This document shows positions 2,658 to 31,211 of a stretch of 64,000 bases of DNA, one piece after another; the first letter of the stretch is position 1; each line of letters opens with the position of its first letter. The stretch covers positions 1 through 64,000 of the forward strand of contig NZ_DASQNA010000015.1 of assembly GCF_035645195.1 (NCBI RefSeq). Direction: 5' to 3'. The notes beneath the pieces were generated by a model. It was not told where the DNA came from, did not search any database, and saw only the letters and a list, made by a program, of their open reading frames with translations. The position numbers were made by a program, and so were the translations under genes. This DNA is from Paenibacillus sp. (GTDB lineage: Bacteria; Bacillota; Bacilli; Paenibacillales; YIM-B00363).

Positions 2658-4553
2658 ATGGACAAACGGAAAATCGGCGCAGGCGTGCTGGTCGCCTTGT
2701 TCGCGCTGGCGTTGCCCGCGGCTTATTGGCTGCAGCAGGACCGGCCCGGCGACGGGCCGCGCGCCGCCGACGTCGGCGATCCGGCCCGCCGGCCCGCCGC
2801 TCGATTCGAGCATCGGCATAAACAAAAGATACTGGCGAGCGACGTCTCCACGACCGCCGCGCTCTGCCGTCTCCAATGCCGCAGCGATTTGGCGTCGTTC
2901 GCGAAGCGAAACGGCGGCCGGAACCAAGAGCAGATTCGACTTGAGCTCGCCGAGATGCGCGGCATGCATCCGCATCTCCATGCGCTGGCGTGGGTCGACG
3001 GCGGCTCCGCGCTGACGGACGGTAGTCTCGGCAACGCGGCGCCGGACGCGAAGGCGCGCTGGGAGGAAGCCATTCGCGCGGTGCGGGCCGGCAAGCGCTA
3101 CGAATCGAAGCCGCTGCAAGGAACGGACGGCGATCAATACTTCGTGCTCGGCGAACCGGCGGGCGCCGGCCGCGGCCAAGGCGCCGTCGGCTTCGTCCAT
3201 CAGGACGTCCTGCGCCAGGTCGCAAGCAACCAGTCCCGAAACCTGCGATTGAAAGAGTTTCCGGACGAGGACAAACGGTTCGGTATTCGCGCGGTCGATC
3301 CGGAAACCGGCCGCGAGGTCGACGTCGACACGCCGGAGGAAAACCAGGGCGTCAGCCATTACCGCAAACGCGAAGTCGTCGTTAAATTCAAGAAACCCCC
3401 GAGTCCTGACGACATCGCGCGGATGAAGGCCGAGACGAAGGCCGTCTCGGTCAAGCAGCTCGGCCCCGCGTTCGTCTTCGATTCCCGGCAGATGACGACC
3501 GCGCAGCTGATGGACTATTTCAAGAAGCGCGACATTGAATACGTCGAGCCGCATTATATGTACGTTACGAACGAAACGTCGGCGGCGGAGCCGAACGACG
3601 AGCTGTACGGACGATACCAATGGAATTTGCCGATCATCGAGACGCCTGCCGGATGGACGCTCTCGAAGGGCAATGCGGAGGTCGTCGTCGGCGTCATCGA
3701 CACCGGCGTCGCCCTCTCCCACCCCGACCTCAAAGAGCACATCGTCGAGGGATACAACGTCGTCGAACCGGCCTCGCCGCCGGAGGACGACGTCGGCCAC
3801 GGCACGCACGTCGCGGGCGTCGTCTCGGCGCTCACCGACAACGGCCAAGGGGTCGCCGGCATGACGTGGTACAACAAAATCATGCCGGTGAAGGTGCTCG
3901 ACTCGACCGGCATGGGCAGCACGTACTCCGTCGCCGAGGGCATCATTTGGGCGACGGATCACGGCGCGAAGGTGATCAACATGAGCCTCGGCAACTATGC
4001 GAGCGCCGAGTTTCTGCACGACGCCATCCGTTACGCGTTCGACCGGGACGTCGTGCTGATCGCGGCGACCGGCAACGACAACACGAGCGATCCCGGCTTT
4101 CCGGCCGCCTATCCGGAGGTGTTCGCCGTCTCCGCCACGAATCAGGATCGGGAGAAAGCGACGTTCTCGAACTATGGCGATTACGTCGACGTCGTCGCCC
4201 CGGGCGAAAATATCGCGAGCACGTATACCGACAACCAATACGCCGCCCTATCCGGCACGTCAATGGCGAGCCCGCACGTCGCCGCGCTCGCGGCGCTGAT
4301 CCGCTCCGCCAATCCGGCGCTGAAAAATACGCAGGTGTACGACATTATGCGCAAGAGCGTCGACGATTTGGGCACGCCGGGAAGAGATCCCTACTACGGG
4401 TATGGGCAAATCAACGTGTCCCGCGCGCTGCAGCTCGCGGTCGGCCAAAAGCCCGAAGCGGCGTCGGACGACGGCGCCGAGCGGCGGACGGTCGGACGCA
4501 AGCCCCGCGAATCGTTCTTCGAAGAGCTGGTCCGCTCCATGTTCGGTTCGTAA
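2658..4553 (+). CDS. Membrane-anchored S8 family (subtilisin-like) serine protease with a sensor-like N-terminal region
   Basis: A 631-residue subtilase. The triad is intact: Asp348 in VIDTGV, His381 in GHGTHVAG and Ser535 in SGTSMASPH; the oxyanion Asn lies in AATGND. Residues about 6-25 are hydrophobic and act as signal or anchor. Residues about 235-310 look like an I9-type propeptide (EVVVKFKKP...). Between them, residues about 60-200 resemble an extracytoplasmic Cache/PDC-like domain (HLHALAWVDGG ... YFVLGEPA), which is an inference from pattern only. The charged tail after the catalytic domain ends in a short amphipathic helix. Start MDKRK follows AGAGGGGAG. Substrate unknown; likely acts outside the membrane. 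Confidence 0.9.
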   Translation: MDKRKIGAGVLVALFALALPAAYWLQQDRPGDGPRAADVGDPARRPAARFEHRHKQKILASDVSTTAALCRLQCRSDLASFAKRNGGRNQEQIRLELAEMRGMHPHLHALAWVDGGSALTDGSLGNAAPDAKARWEEAIRAVRAGKRYESKPLQGTDGDQYFVLGEPAGAGRGQGAVGFVHQDVLRQVASNQSRNLRLKEFPDEDKRFGIRAVDPETGREVDVDTPEENQGVSHYRKREVVVKFKKPPSPDDIARMKAETKAVSVKQLGPAFVFDSRQMTTAQLMDYFKKRDIEYVEPHYMYVTNETSAAEPNDELYGRYQWNLPIIETPAGWTLSKGNAEVVVGVIDTGVALSHPDLKEHIVEGYNVVEPASPPEDDVGHGTHVAGVVSALTDNGQGVAGMTWYNKIMPVKVLDSTGMGSTYSVAEGIIWATDHGAKVINMSLGNYASAEFLHDAIRYAFDRDVVLIAATGNDNTSDPGFPAAYPEVFAVSATNQDREKATFSNYGDYVDVVAPGENIASTYTDNQYAALSGTSMASPHVAALAALIRSANPALKNTQVYDIMRKSVDDLGTPGRDPYYGYGQINVSRALQLAVGQKPEAASDDGAERRTVGRKPRESFFEELVRSMFGS

Positions 4554-4610: not shown

Positions 4611-4621
4611 ATGGTGATCAA

Positions 4622-5032
4622 GAGAAGTTTGCCGTAAGCCGGGTTCTGTACTTCCAGTGGTCAGATCGGGTCACCTGCCCTCCCACCGCGGAAGCGACAA
4701 TCATCTATCTAGGCGGCGCATTGCTGCGACGCTCAAGCGACCAACCCGAACGCGCCTCGGGCCAAGGCTGCGGCGCGAAGCCGCGGCGTTCTCCTCGGTC
4801 TTGCTCCAAGTGGGGTTTACCAGGATGTATGTCACCATACCTCCTCGTGGTCTCTTACACCACGGTTCCACCCTTGCCTGTGCCTTCTCGCGAAGGCCAT
4901 CGGCGGTCCATTTCTGTGGCACTATCCTTCGGCTCGCGCCGACTGGACGTTATCCAGCACCCTGCCCTGTGGAGCCCGGACTTTCCTCCCGCGAGCCTTG
5001 CGGCCCGCCGGCGATTGTCTGTCAAACTTCTC
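4622..5032 (-). ncRNA. rnpB: RNase P RNA, class A architecture
   Basis: The catalytic RNA that cleaves 5' leaders from pre-tRNAs. Ends are set by a perfect 10-bp P1 helix (GAGAAGTTTG with CAAACTTCTC). Conserved blocks appear in order: GAGGAAAGTCCGGGCTCC, CAGGGCAGGGTGCTGG, CACAGAAA, ACCGCCGATGGC, GGTAAACCCCAC, GGAGCAAGACC, CTAGATAGATGATTGTC and AGAACCCGGCTTA. The GGGCAGGGTGC and GGAGCAAGRCC...GGTYGCTTGAG blocks resemble the E. coli-type (class A) RNA and not the B. subtilis class B RNA, which lacks them and has its own P5.1/P15.1 helices. Length about 411 nt. Own promoter upstream. Confidence 0.95.
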
Positions 5033-27138: not shown

Positions 27139-28173
27139 TTACAGTTCATCCCAATTGAGATTGGACGATTTCGTATAATTCGTAACCTTCTGTTCGAAAA
27201 AGTCCGTTTTCATCGCGTTCATGTTGCTGAAGCTTTCCACCCACTTCATCGGATGCTCGACGATTTCCGGGTACAGCGGCTCGAGATCGAGCTTGCGCAG
27301 CCGCTCGTTCGCCAAATACTTGATGTATTTATCGATCAGTTCGTTACTGAGCCCCGCGATTTTGTTCGCCGTAATGTACTGCCCCCACGCGATTTCGTGC
27401 TCCGCGGCGGTGCGCATCATCTCCCGCAGCTCCTCGATGTCGCTCGGCCCGAACAGCTCCGGATTTTCCCGCCGCAGCTCGCGGAACATCGATTGAAACA
27501 GCGCCAAATGCGTCAGCTCGTCGCGCTGAATATATTTGATCTCGGACACCGTGCCGAGCATTTTCCCCTGCCGCCCGAGCGCATAGAAGAAGCTGAAGCC
27601 GCTATAGAAATAAATCCCCTCGAGGATGTAATTGGCCATGATCGTCCTAAGCAAATTCGCCTCCGACGGATCCTCGAGGAACCGCTCGTACAAGTCGGTA
27701 ATGAACCGATTGCGGGCGAGCAAATGTTTGTCCTCCCGCCACTCGTTATATATCCGATCCCGCGCCTCCGCCGAGCACACGCTGTCGAGAATGTACGAAT
27801 AGCTTTGGCTGTGCACCGCCTCCTGGAACGTATGAATCGTCAGGATGAGGTTAACCTCCGGCGCCGTAATATACTCGTTGATATTCGGCAAATTCGCCGT
27901 CTGCAGCGAGTCGAGGAAAATGAGAAAGCTGATGATTTTATCGTAGCTCTGCCGCTCTTCGGGCGACAGCAGCTTGTAGTCCTTCGCGTCTTGCGCGAGC
28001 GGAATTTCTTCGGGAATCCAGAAGTTGTTCATCATCGTGCGGTACATTTTCGTCGCCCATTCGTACTTCACGTTGTTCAGCTCGATCAGGTTCGTCGTGT
28101 TGCCCCCGATCAGCCGCCGCTTGCCCCAATCCCGATCTCCGTGCTCGTTGAACAATTTCTTTTTCTCCAACAT
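27139..28173 (-). CDS. nrdB: Class Ia ribonucleotide reductase, beta subunit
   Basis: 344 residues, di-metal tyrosyl radical subunit. All ligands are recognisable: Asp in FLDSLQ, Glu and His in QEAVHSQSYSYIL with the radical Tyr four residues after the His, Glu in EGIYFYSGF, and Glu and His in EIKYIQRDELTHL. The C-terminal tail (NLNWDEL) is the peptide that docks on the alpha subunit. It supplies the radical for dNTP synthesis. It follows nrdA after a 357-bp gap that contains hairpin repeats, an unusual spacing for this pair. RBS GGAGC. Confidence 0.96.
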   Translation of the reverse strand: MLEKKKLFNEHGDRDWGKRRLIGGNTTNLIELNNVKYEWATKMYRTMMNNFWIPEEIPLAQDAKDYKLLSPEERQSYDKIISFLIFLDSLQTANLPNINEYITAPEVNLILTIHTFQEAVHSQSYSYILDSVCSAEARDRIYNEWREDKHLLARNRFITDLYERFLEDPSEANLLRTIMANYILEGIYFYSGFSFFYALGRQGKMLGTVSEIKYIQRDELTHLALFQSMFRELRRENPELFGPSDIEELREMMRTAAEHEIAWGQYITANKIAGLSNELIDKYIKYLANERLRKLDLEPLYPEIVEHPMKWVESFSNMNAMKTDFFEQKVTNYTKSSNLNWDEL

Positions 28174-28530: not shown

Positions 28531-30771
28531 TTACGCGGAGCAGCTGACGCAGTCCTCGACGTCGACGCTTTGGTTGCGGCAATAGTACACGGTTTTAACC
28601 CCGAGCTGCCACGCCTCCATGTACAGCTCCAAGAACTCGCGCGCGGACATGGCCGGCGTAATGTACAGGTTGAACGACTGCGCCTGATCGATATGCTTTT
28701 GGCGCGCCGCCGCCGCTTTCACGCTCCAGCTTTGGTCGATCGTATGCGCCTCTTTGTAGAACCACATCGTCTTCGGCCCGAGGTTCGGCGCCGTCTGCGG
28801 GATGACCGCGTTTTTCTTCTCCTCGACGAAAAACTTGCGGAACACCGGGTCGATGCCGGCCGTCGAACCCGAGATCAAACTCGTCGACGCCGTCGGCGCG
28901 ACCGCGAACATCCACGCGTTGCGCACGCCGTGCGCCGCCACGTCCGCTTTCAGCGCCTGCCAGTGCGCGCCCTCGTAGCCGCGGCGGTCGAAGTATTCGC
29001 CCGTCTGCCACTCGCTGCCTTCGAACACGCTGTACGCGCCTTTCTCCTTAGCGATCTCGTACGACGCTTTGATCGCGCAGTAGCCGATCCACTCGTACAG
29101 CTCGTCGGCGGTCGCGAGATGCTCCTCGGACTCCCACGCGATGCCCGCCTCCGCGAGGAACTGATGGTAGCCGCTCGTGCCGAGGCCGACGGCGCGGTAT
29201 TTTTTGTTCGTCCGCTCCGCCTGCGGCACCGGGTATTCGTTCAGGTCGATGACGTTGTCCATCATGCGCATCTGCAGCGAGACGACGCGCTCGATGTCCT
29301 CCTTCGTTTTCACCCGGCCGAGGTTGAGCGACGACAGGTTGCACACGACGAAGTCGCCGGCTTTCGCTTTCGTCGTAATGATGCCGTCCTCGTGCACCGT
29401 TTGGATAAGCTCCGTCGGCGACATGTTCTGCGCGATTTCCGTGCACAGGTTCGAGCAGTAAATCATGCCCGCGTGCTTGTTCGGATTGGCGCGGTTGACC
29501 GTGTCGCGGTAGAAGACGAACGGCGTGCCCGTTTCGAAGGCGCTCGCGAGGATGCGCTTCATGATCTCGACGGCCGGCAGCTCGTCGCGGGACAGCGTCG
29601 GATGCTCGACGCACGCTTGATAGCGGCGCTCCCACTCTTCGCCCCAGCTATCCTCGAGCGAGAAGCCGAGCTTCGTCCGCACCTCGTGCGGGTCGAACAA
29701 ATACCACGTGTCCCGGCTTTGGACGCGGCGCATGAACTCGTCCGGGATGCAGACGCCCGGGAAAATGTCGTGCGCCTTCATCCGGTCGTCGCCGTTGTTC
29801 GTTTTCAGATTAAGGAAATCGAGAATATCCTTATGCCACACGTCGAGATAAATCGCGACGGCGCCGGATCTGACGCCGAGCTGGTCGACCGCGAGCGCGG
29901 TGTTGTTGTAGTTTTTGATCCACGGCACGACGCCGCCCGCGGCGCCTTTGTGACCGCGGATGTCCGAGCCTCGGCTGCGGATTTTGCCGACGTAGATGCC
30001 CATGCCGCCGCCGTGCTTCGACACCTGCGCGAAGCTCGCGTTCACGTTGTAGATGCCCCACAGATCGTCCGGCGCCGTGTCGATGAAGCAGCTCGACAGC
30101 TGGTGCTTCGGCTTGCGCGCGTTCGCGAGCGTCGGCGTCGCCACCGTCATTTCGAGCTTCGAGAGCGCGTCGTAAAACTGCTTCGCGTAATGGAGGCGTT
30201 GCGAAGGCTGCTCGTTGCTCGCAAGATGCATCGCGACGCCCATGAACAGCTCCTGCGGCAGCTCGAGCGTTTCTTTGTCGCGGCCGCGGATGAGGTACCG
30301 GTCGGCGAGCGTTTGCAGACCGATGTAGGTGAACAGGAAGTCGCGCTCCGGCTTCAGGTACGCCTGCAGCTCGTCGATTTGCTCTTCGGTGTAGCTTTCA
30401 AGGATATAAGCGCCGTACAAATTTTCGCGGGTAAGCCGCTCGATCAGCTTGCGGAAGCTGCCCGGCTCCCCGTAGCCGAACGATTCGTAGCCGCGATGAA
30501 TGCCGGCTTCTTTGTACAGATCGTAAATGAGGAGCCTGGCGGCGACGTACTGCCAGTCCGGCTCGTCGACGCTCGTTTTCTCGACCGCCGTGCGGATGAG
30601 CAGGCGCTGAATTTCTTTCGTCGTCATCCCTTGGCGGAACAGCGGCAGCAGCGCCTGCTCGAGCTCGAGCGGGTCGCAGGACGGGTACGCTTCGCAGGCG
30701 AAGTCGATCACTCTTTTCAATTTGGCGAACACGAGCTCTTCGCGTTGTCCGTTGCGTTTTACGATTTCCAT
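28531..30771 (-). CDS. nrdA: Class Ia ribonucleotide reductase, alpha subunit, with ATP cone
   Basis: 746 residues; reduces ribonucleoside diphosphates to deoxy forms. An N-terminal ATP-cone (residues about 1-90, VKRNGQREELVFAKLKRVI) provides allosteric control by ATP/dATP. The 10-stranded barrel carries SSCFIDTAPDD, SKHGGGMGIYVG and NLCTEI motifs. The C-terminal CVSC pair re-reduces the active site. ATG has GGAGG 11 nt upstream. The gene lies behind an adenosylcobalamin riboswitch and a terminator, so it is repressed when B12 is present. The open frame upstream crosses the terminator and is not translated from a convincing start. Confidence 0.96.
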   Translation of the reverse strand: MEIVKRNGQREELVFAKLKRVIDFACEAYPSCDPLELEQALLPLFRQGMTTKEIQRLLIRTAVEKTSVDEPDWQYVAARLLIYDLYKEAGIHRGYESFGYGEPGSFRKLIERLTRENLYGAYILESYTEEQIDELQAYLKPERDFLFTYIGLQTLADRYLIRGRDKETLELPQELFMGVAMHLASNEQPSQRLHYAKQFYDALSKLEMTVATPTLANARKPKHQLSSCFIDTAPDDLWGIYNVNASFAQVSKHGGGMGIYVGKIRSRGSDIRGHKGAAGGVVPWIKNYNNTALAVDQLGVRSGAVAIYLDVWHKDILDFLNLKTNNGDDRMKAHDIFPGVCIPDEFMRRVQSRDTWYLFDPHEVRTKLGFSLEDSWGEEWERRYQACVEHPTLSRDELPAVEIMKRILASAFETGTPFVFYRDTVNRANPNKHAGMIYCSNLCTEIAQNMSPTELIQTVHEDGIITTKAKAGDFVVCNLSSLNLGRVKTKEDIERVVSLQMRMMDNVIDLNEYPVPQAERTNKKYRAVGLGTSGYHQFLAEAGIAWESEEHLATADELYEWIGYCAIKASYEIAKEKGAYSVFEGSEWQTGEYFDRRGYEGAHWQALKADVAAHGVRNAWMFAVAPTASTSLISGSTAGIDPVFRKFFVEEKKNAVIPQTAPNLGPKTMWFYKEAHTIDQSWSVKAAAARQKHIDQAQSFNLYITPAMSAREFLELYMEAWQLGVKTVYYCRNQSVDVEDCVSCSA

Positions 30772-30824: not shown

Positions 30825-30863
30825 AAAAAAAAAGCATTGCCTCCTCTGCAGAGAAAGCAATGC
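30825..30863 (-). terminator. Attenuator terminator between the B12 riboswitch and nrdA
   Basis: GCATTGC pairs with GCAATGC, with an inner TCTGCAGA palindrome, followed by nine T on the minus strand. It lies 54 bp before nrdA and is the expected expression platform. Confidence 0.88.
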
Positions 30864-30959
30864 GATGATTTGCGCGAAAACTAGCACGAAGGGCGTACGG
30901 CTCCGCACACGTCAAGTACGAACGGCGAGCCGCGCCGCGCAAACACCTCCCTATCTCCC

Positions 30960-31155
30960 GTAGGTTCCACAGTGTTCACGAACGAGGCAGGTCTCCTGGC
31001 TTGCGGACTCGAACGCTGCGCAGCGACGCCTTCCCACCCTTCTTAAGGGCAGTGGCTTCTTGCACGCTTGCAGCTCGTCCGTTACAGTGGCGGGACCGCG
31101 CCGGCTTCACACCGGTCTTCCCTATTAAGTCCTACTCTCGTAGGACACCCCATTC
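30960..31155 (-). promoter_or_regulatory. Adenosylcobalamin (B12) riboswitch controlling nrdA
   Basis: On the minus strand the conserved blocks come in order: GTCCTAC...GTAGGAC stem, AATAGGGAAG, CCGGTGTGAAGCCGG, GCGGTCCCGCCACTGTAAC, GAAGCCACT, GGGAAGG and AGTCCGCAAGCCAGGAGACC. This is the cobalamin riboswitch aptamer. Ligand binding should favour the downstream terminator and shut off nrdA-nrdB. Confidence 0.95.
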
Positions 31156-31182
31156 GCACAATATGTAGTTGTGATAGACGTA

Positions 31183-31211
31183 CTATAATACAAGATATTG
31201 AGAGTTGTCAA
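31183..31211 (-). promoter_or_regulatory. SigA promoter of the nrd leader
   Basis: TTGACA, 17 bp, TTATAG on the minus strand, directly after the sbcC stop codon. Predicted transcript start is near 31176, giving a leader of about 400 nt. Confidence 0.85.

Follow-up and report, generated by a model that had tools for sequence, protein, structure and literature searches.

Cobalamin control of the Streptomyces nrdABS genes is experimentally supported (Borovok 2006, as cited in PMC4991794 and PMC4342826). For nrdAB of Propionibacterium acnes, RNA-seq shows that most transcription ends before the first gene (PMC3848588), and PMC4342826 describes an AdoCbl riboswitch upstream of nrdAB in Bacillus methanolicus MGA3, based on RNA-seq and annotation. 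Isozymes of B12-dependent enzymes form a standard category in a large regulon survey (PMC3766115). The original prediction for the locus described here, that its regulatory logic is known from Streptomyces and elsewhere, agrees with these precedents.

The locus lies in a 64,000-nt stretch of Paenibacillus sp. DNA (contig NZ_DASQNA010000015.1), hereafter the window. The leader of nrdA occupies positions 31211-30825 on the minus strand, and sbcC is located upstream of it in the same orientation. As had been predicted, the leader begins with a SigA-type promoter, TTGACA-18-TATAGT (31211-31182 (-)), which is near-perfect (11/12 matches) and rare in shuffled sequence (0.4 sites per region); an equivalent of the TTGACA element was found in most of the nrd leaders compared. 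The promoter is followed by the aptamer of a cobalamin (AdoCbl-type) riboswitch (31167-30969 (-)), delimited with RF00174 and by alignment. A cmscan of the window returned a single cobalamin riboswitch, on the minus strand, which scored 120.4 bits (E=1.2e-29; gathering score, 31.5) and covered model positions 1-189 of 189. The sequence and secondary structure are thus those of a cobalamin riboswitch, and the aptamer with its core blocks, first noticed by inspection of the letters, fits the covariance model clearly from end to end. Between the aptamer and nrdA, we observed an intrinsic terminator of the kind needed for attenuation, consisting of a 13-bp stem (30863-30834 (-)) with a UGCA loop and a calculated energy of -18.4 kcal/mol, directly followed by the nine T that had been reported (30833-30825); such a hairpin with nine T is rare in shuffled sequence. 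Aptamer and terminator are 105 nt apart, close to the initial estimate of about 100 nt. Elsewhere in the window, a class A RNase P RNA was detected (4620-5030 (-), 277 bits).

The nrdA gene (28531..30771 (-)) encodes the large subunit of a class I ribonucleotide reductase, a protein of 746 aa with an ATP-cone (TIGR02506, 617 bits; PF03477, PF00317, PF02867). The nrdB gene (27139..28173 (-)) encodes the small subunit, of 344 aa (NF007184, 516 bits; PF00268), in which the tyrosine at the radical position is present (EAVHSQSY). Since NrdA carries an N-terminal ATP-cone and a profile search found no nrdI anywhere in the genome, a combination that characterizes class Ia, the sequences identify the enzyme as the NrdAB type and not class Ib. 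NrdA matched TIGR02506, which describes class I in general, and remained below the cut-off of the class Ib model (392 versus 750). The more precise label, class Ia, was supported by these features, but not by a class-Ia-specific curated model, NrdA scoring 380 bits versus the 813 required by NF006578, a model that looks narrow.

Gene content of the genome was derived from profile searches, which yielded two matches to large reductase subunits, namely nrdA and a class II NrdJ; NrdD was not found. The class II enzyme, whose presence in the same genome had been anticipated, is encoded on contig 42 as an intact protein of 871 aa (TIGR02504 (NrdJ_Z), 574 bits versus a curated cut-off of 400 for adenosylcobalamin-dependent reductases). 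Other users of B12 were a methylmalonyl-CoA-mutase-type enzyme and MetH, the latter just below the model cut-off and on a truncated locus, so that B12 use, on which the original prediction depended, is apparent from the gene content. The only other cobalamin riboswitch of the genome precedes a B12 uptake and salvage operon (btu/cob), with genes for a periplasmic-binding protein, a permease, an ATPase, CobT, CobU, CbiB, CobS, and an aminotransferase; a cobalamin adenosyltransferase gene adjoins this operon. Through uptake, CobU/CobS/CobT/CbiB, and the adenosyltransferase, the cell would have a source of AdoCbl. No CbiC was found in the genome by profile search, which, together with the uptake and assembly genes, suggests that corrinoids are probably taken up and finished rather than the ring being made.

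Two further observations were made around nrdJ. Contig 42 (G000) carries a match resembling a c-di-GMP-I-GGC riboswitch (L119:7090-7173 (-)), with 56.1 bits versus a gathering score of 59. In a genome of the same genus, G001, nrdJ (L120 reverse complement, ~3630-3900) contains an interruption of ~260 nt with stop codons, directly after the CTNPCG codons near the active site; it gave no Rfam match and is possibly an unrecognised intron.

From the sequence of the leader and the gene content, it is very probable that this class I (AdoCbl-type) cobalamin riboswitch binds AdoCbl and serves as an OFF switch that attenuates nrdAB transcription. B12 most likely shuts off nrdAB because the bacterium also has a B12-dependent reductase, and the gene content supports the predicted logic of repression by B12, which requires NrdJ alongside nrdAB. 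When AdoCbl is bound, loop L5 of the aptamer would dock with loop L13, hold the P13 hairpin, and block an antiterminator; the terminator would then stop RNA polymerase before nrdA, and dNTPs would come from NrdJ. When AdoCbl is lacking, the 3' strand of P13 would pair downstream and sequester the 5' arm of the terminator, and NrdAB, which is oxygen-dependent and B12-free, would be made.

The P13-type hairpin (AACAC/GUGUU and CCUA/UAGG; 30976-30942 (-)) is supported by covariation in 12 leaders, those of the window and eleven relatives, which share the consensus RACAC...CCUR[loop]YAGG...GUGUY after the aptamer. In these leaders, all 106 pair cells were standard (100%), versus 31-43% when the pairing was slid, and six double-sided changes were counted, versus a shuffled mean of 1.8 (0 of 500 shuffles). 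The P13 loop of the window, CGGGA (30960-30956), is a perfect complement of L5, UCCCG; this complementarity is short in some relatives. As L5 is invariant, covariation is uninformative on the L5-L13 contact. The original prediction had also left room for an extra antiterminator. With the transcript folded up to the terminator loop, the window and most relatives showed pairing between the 3' half of P13 and the terminator 5' arm, which gives a candidate antiterminator (30957-30936 with 30876-30851 (-)) formed by GGUGUUUGCGCG and CGCGCAAAUCAUC plus GAGA and UCUC of the terminator 5' arm. The truncated transcript can thus adopt such a fold, but in the duplex test the energies were not better than those of shuffled arms (mean z -0.5). 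The antiterminator is therefore treated as a plausible model only. The leader downstream of the aptamer showed no unusually stable fold (z -1.35).

In weighing the OFF switch, we counted in its favor the aptamer, the covariation of P13, the terminator, the presence of NrdJ with neither NrdD nor NrdI, the salvage operon behind a second riboswitch, the adenosyltransferase and the absence of CbiC, the nrdR gene with its box pair (see below), the order of leader elements kept in relatives, and the precedents; we counted against it the antiterminator duplex, which resembles shuffles, the z of -1.35, the invariance of L5 and the short L13 complementarity of some relatives, and the lack of a riboswitch in most class Ia relatives. 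The first of these unfavorable points also bears on a different mode of action, in which a genuine aptamer controls translation or RNA stability, the hairpin and its nine T being a leaky or constitutive attenuator. Many cobalamin riboswitches elsewhere control the ribosome binding site, and an antiterminator pairing not above chance would fit this mode. Here, however, the AGGAGG that precedes the nrdA ATG at 30771 (30788-30783 (-)) lies beyond the structured leader, 37 nt after the T run, and a terminator-like hairpin with a T-rich tail stands between aptamer and gene in 11 of the 12 related leaders (in L020, only a weak one). Control of translation or stability is accordingly considered improbable.

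A little less probable again is the sensing of a corrinoid other than AdoCbl, namely MeCbl or aquocobalamin (class II type). RF00174 scores the general aptamer and is compatible with such a ligand, but the aptamer is long and its P6-side extension complete, which we take to indicate the AdoCbl type. Moreover, NrdJ uses AdoCbl, so AdoCbl sensing fits the regulatory logic.

Regulation of nrdAB by transcription attenuation would be combined with a second control at the promoter. Every pair of 16-mers 31-32 bp apart in the window (127,906 pairs) was scored against the published NrdR consensus, acaCwAtATaTwGtgt (PMC4009431). The best pair of the whole window, in a 32-bp register, reached 24/32, versus 19 for the next independent pair, and consisted of box 1, TCTCAATATCTTGTAT, between -35 and -10 (31203-31188 (-), 12/16), and box 2, CAACTACATATTGTGC, which covers the start site and runs into the 5' end of the aptamer (31171-31156 (-), 12/16). 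The boxes are separated by a spacer of 16 bp, the usual NrdR spacing being 15-16 bp (PMC12051234). The genome encodes nrdR and, with two 16-bp boxes at the right spacing, the promoter has the features of one controlled by NrdR, which would repress initiation through both boxes when dATP is high. Because the box pair overlaps the promoter and the start site, nrdAB is probably controlled both at initiation, by NrdR, and at elongation, by the riboswitch. Tandem NrdR-type boxes recur at the nrd leaders of relatives, whether the riboswitch is present or absent, and nrdJ of this genome has one strong NrdR box ~100 bp upstream.

To describe the distribution of the riboswitch, we used 56 Paenibacillaceae-type class Ia nrdA loci with their flanks. 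Besides the window, four loci carried it (L008, L020, L035, and L036), and no recognisable riboswitch was found in 52 of the 56; its presence before class Ia nrdAB is thus patchy. Five Alicyclobacillus-like nrdA loci, one of Sulfobacillus, and one clostridial locus also had a riboswitch. L008 had been scored as riboswitch-free in a motif scan of 700 nt upstream, a result overturned by a profile search, which located the element ~940 nt ahead of nrdA, on the far side of tandem repeats. In G001 (L102:1570-2160), ~530 nt of tandem repeats, with a unit like GACAAACTCCGGTTACAAGGCGGAAAATCGGGTCCGCGACGCCAAATAGCCG, lie between terminator and nrdA. The nrdA leader of Paenibacillus naphthalenovorans (L039:4640-5010) retains NrdR-like boxes, a terminator, and a GCAGACCTGCC block, but the core of the aptamer is gone (19.8 bits with model R1); judging from this arrangement, it looks like a decayed cobalamin riboswitch. 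That the copy in the window is likewise decaying and non-regulating, NrdR alone controlling nrdAB as in most class Ia relatives, is very unlikely, for although the 52 riboswitch-free loci and the P. naphthalenovorans copy point in that direction, the window retains a full model match of 120 bits, the core blocks, P13, and the 13-bp terminator, and in L008, the closest relative, the elements follow one another in the same order.

An order-wide survey of 200 genomes, with counts based on the best 150 matches listed, gave a broader picture. Among the matches listed, riboswitches immediately preceded class I reductases in several genera, and the same leader order was kept in relatives before both nrdAB and nrdIEF. 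Within the genus of the window, G001 has a class Ia reductase behind the riboswitch, and three genomes (G002, G003, and G005) have class Ib there; the class Ib identity was confirmed by nrdI and NrdE profiles in G005, with nrdI/nrdE-like ORFs in G002 and G003. Only 5 of the 200 genomes were without a cobalamin riboswitch among the matches listed. By the same matches, four of these are members of one genus with one reductase match each, and the fifth, a 1.4-Mb genome (G007), has one reductase match that is class-II-like by score. Within this order, cobalamin riboswitches also precede metE (L117, L137, and L139). The NrdA tree, whose branches among Alicyclobacillus, L074, and L080 are long, was used for presence counts only. 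On the aptamer tree, which has open branches, the nrd label requires six changes; this tree fits one origin or several.

As a tentative reading, rather less than an even chance in our estimation, Paenibacillales may possess one promoter module, in which tandem NrdR boxes run into a cobalamin riboswitch with P13 and an attenuator, joined to whichever class I reductase is present, so that members of a single genus may have either nrdAB (class Ia) or nrdIEF (class Ib) behind it. If so, the regulatory leader would have persisted or been reacquired through a change of enzyme class, and the riboswitch would have been lost several times in class Ia lineages. In the open-licence literature searched, we found no report of a class Ib reductase under a cobalamin riboswitch, nor of one enzyme class replacing another behind a similar leader. 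With the related leaders, this mode of control, described mostly in actinobacteria, would reach many Paenibacillales as well as class Ib enzymes, and the patchy presence of the riboswitch provides naturally occurring pairs that have or lack it. The OFF switch further predicts that scavenged B12 decides whether the oxygen-dependent or the B12-dependent enzyme makes the DNA building blocks.

Compared with the described systems, the locus resembles Streptomyces coelicolor nrdABS, where a cobalamin riboswitch precedes class Ia nrdAB and NrdJ is encoded in the same genome (Borovok et al. 2006, as cited in PMC4991794 and PMC4342826). There, the promoters of both the class Ia and the class II genes are bound by NrdR (Grinberg 2006, as cited in PMC4009431). 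S. coelicolor belongs to another phylum and has nrdS in its operon, which is lacking here. P. acnes similarly combines a cobalamin riboswitch and an NrdR box at the nrdAB promoter with the presence of nrdJ, but it is an actinobacterium, has one NrdR box versus two here, and also has a riboswitch before nrdDG, whereas this genome is without nrdD (PMC3848588). B. methanolicus is a member of the Bacillota and has an AdoCbl riboswitch before nrdAB (PMC4342826), but belongs to another order. The cobalamin riboswitch of metE is alike in that B12 turns off a B12-free isozyme, the B12-independent methionine synthase, and differs in the enzyme concerned. Given the Streptomyces, P. acnes, and B. methanolicus precedents, cobalamin control of B12-independent isozymes is a kind of control already known, of which the window is a well-predicted further example.
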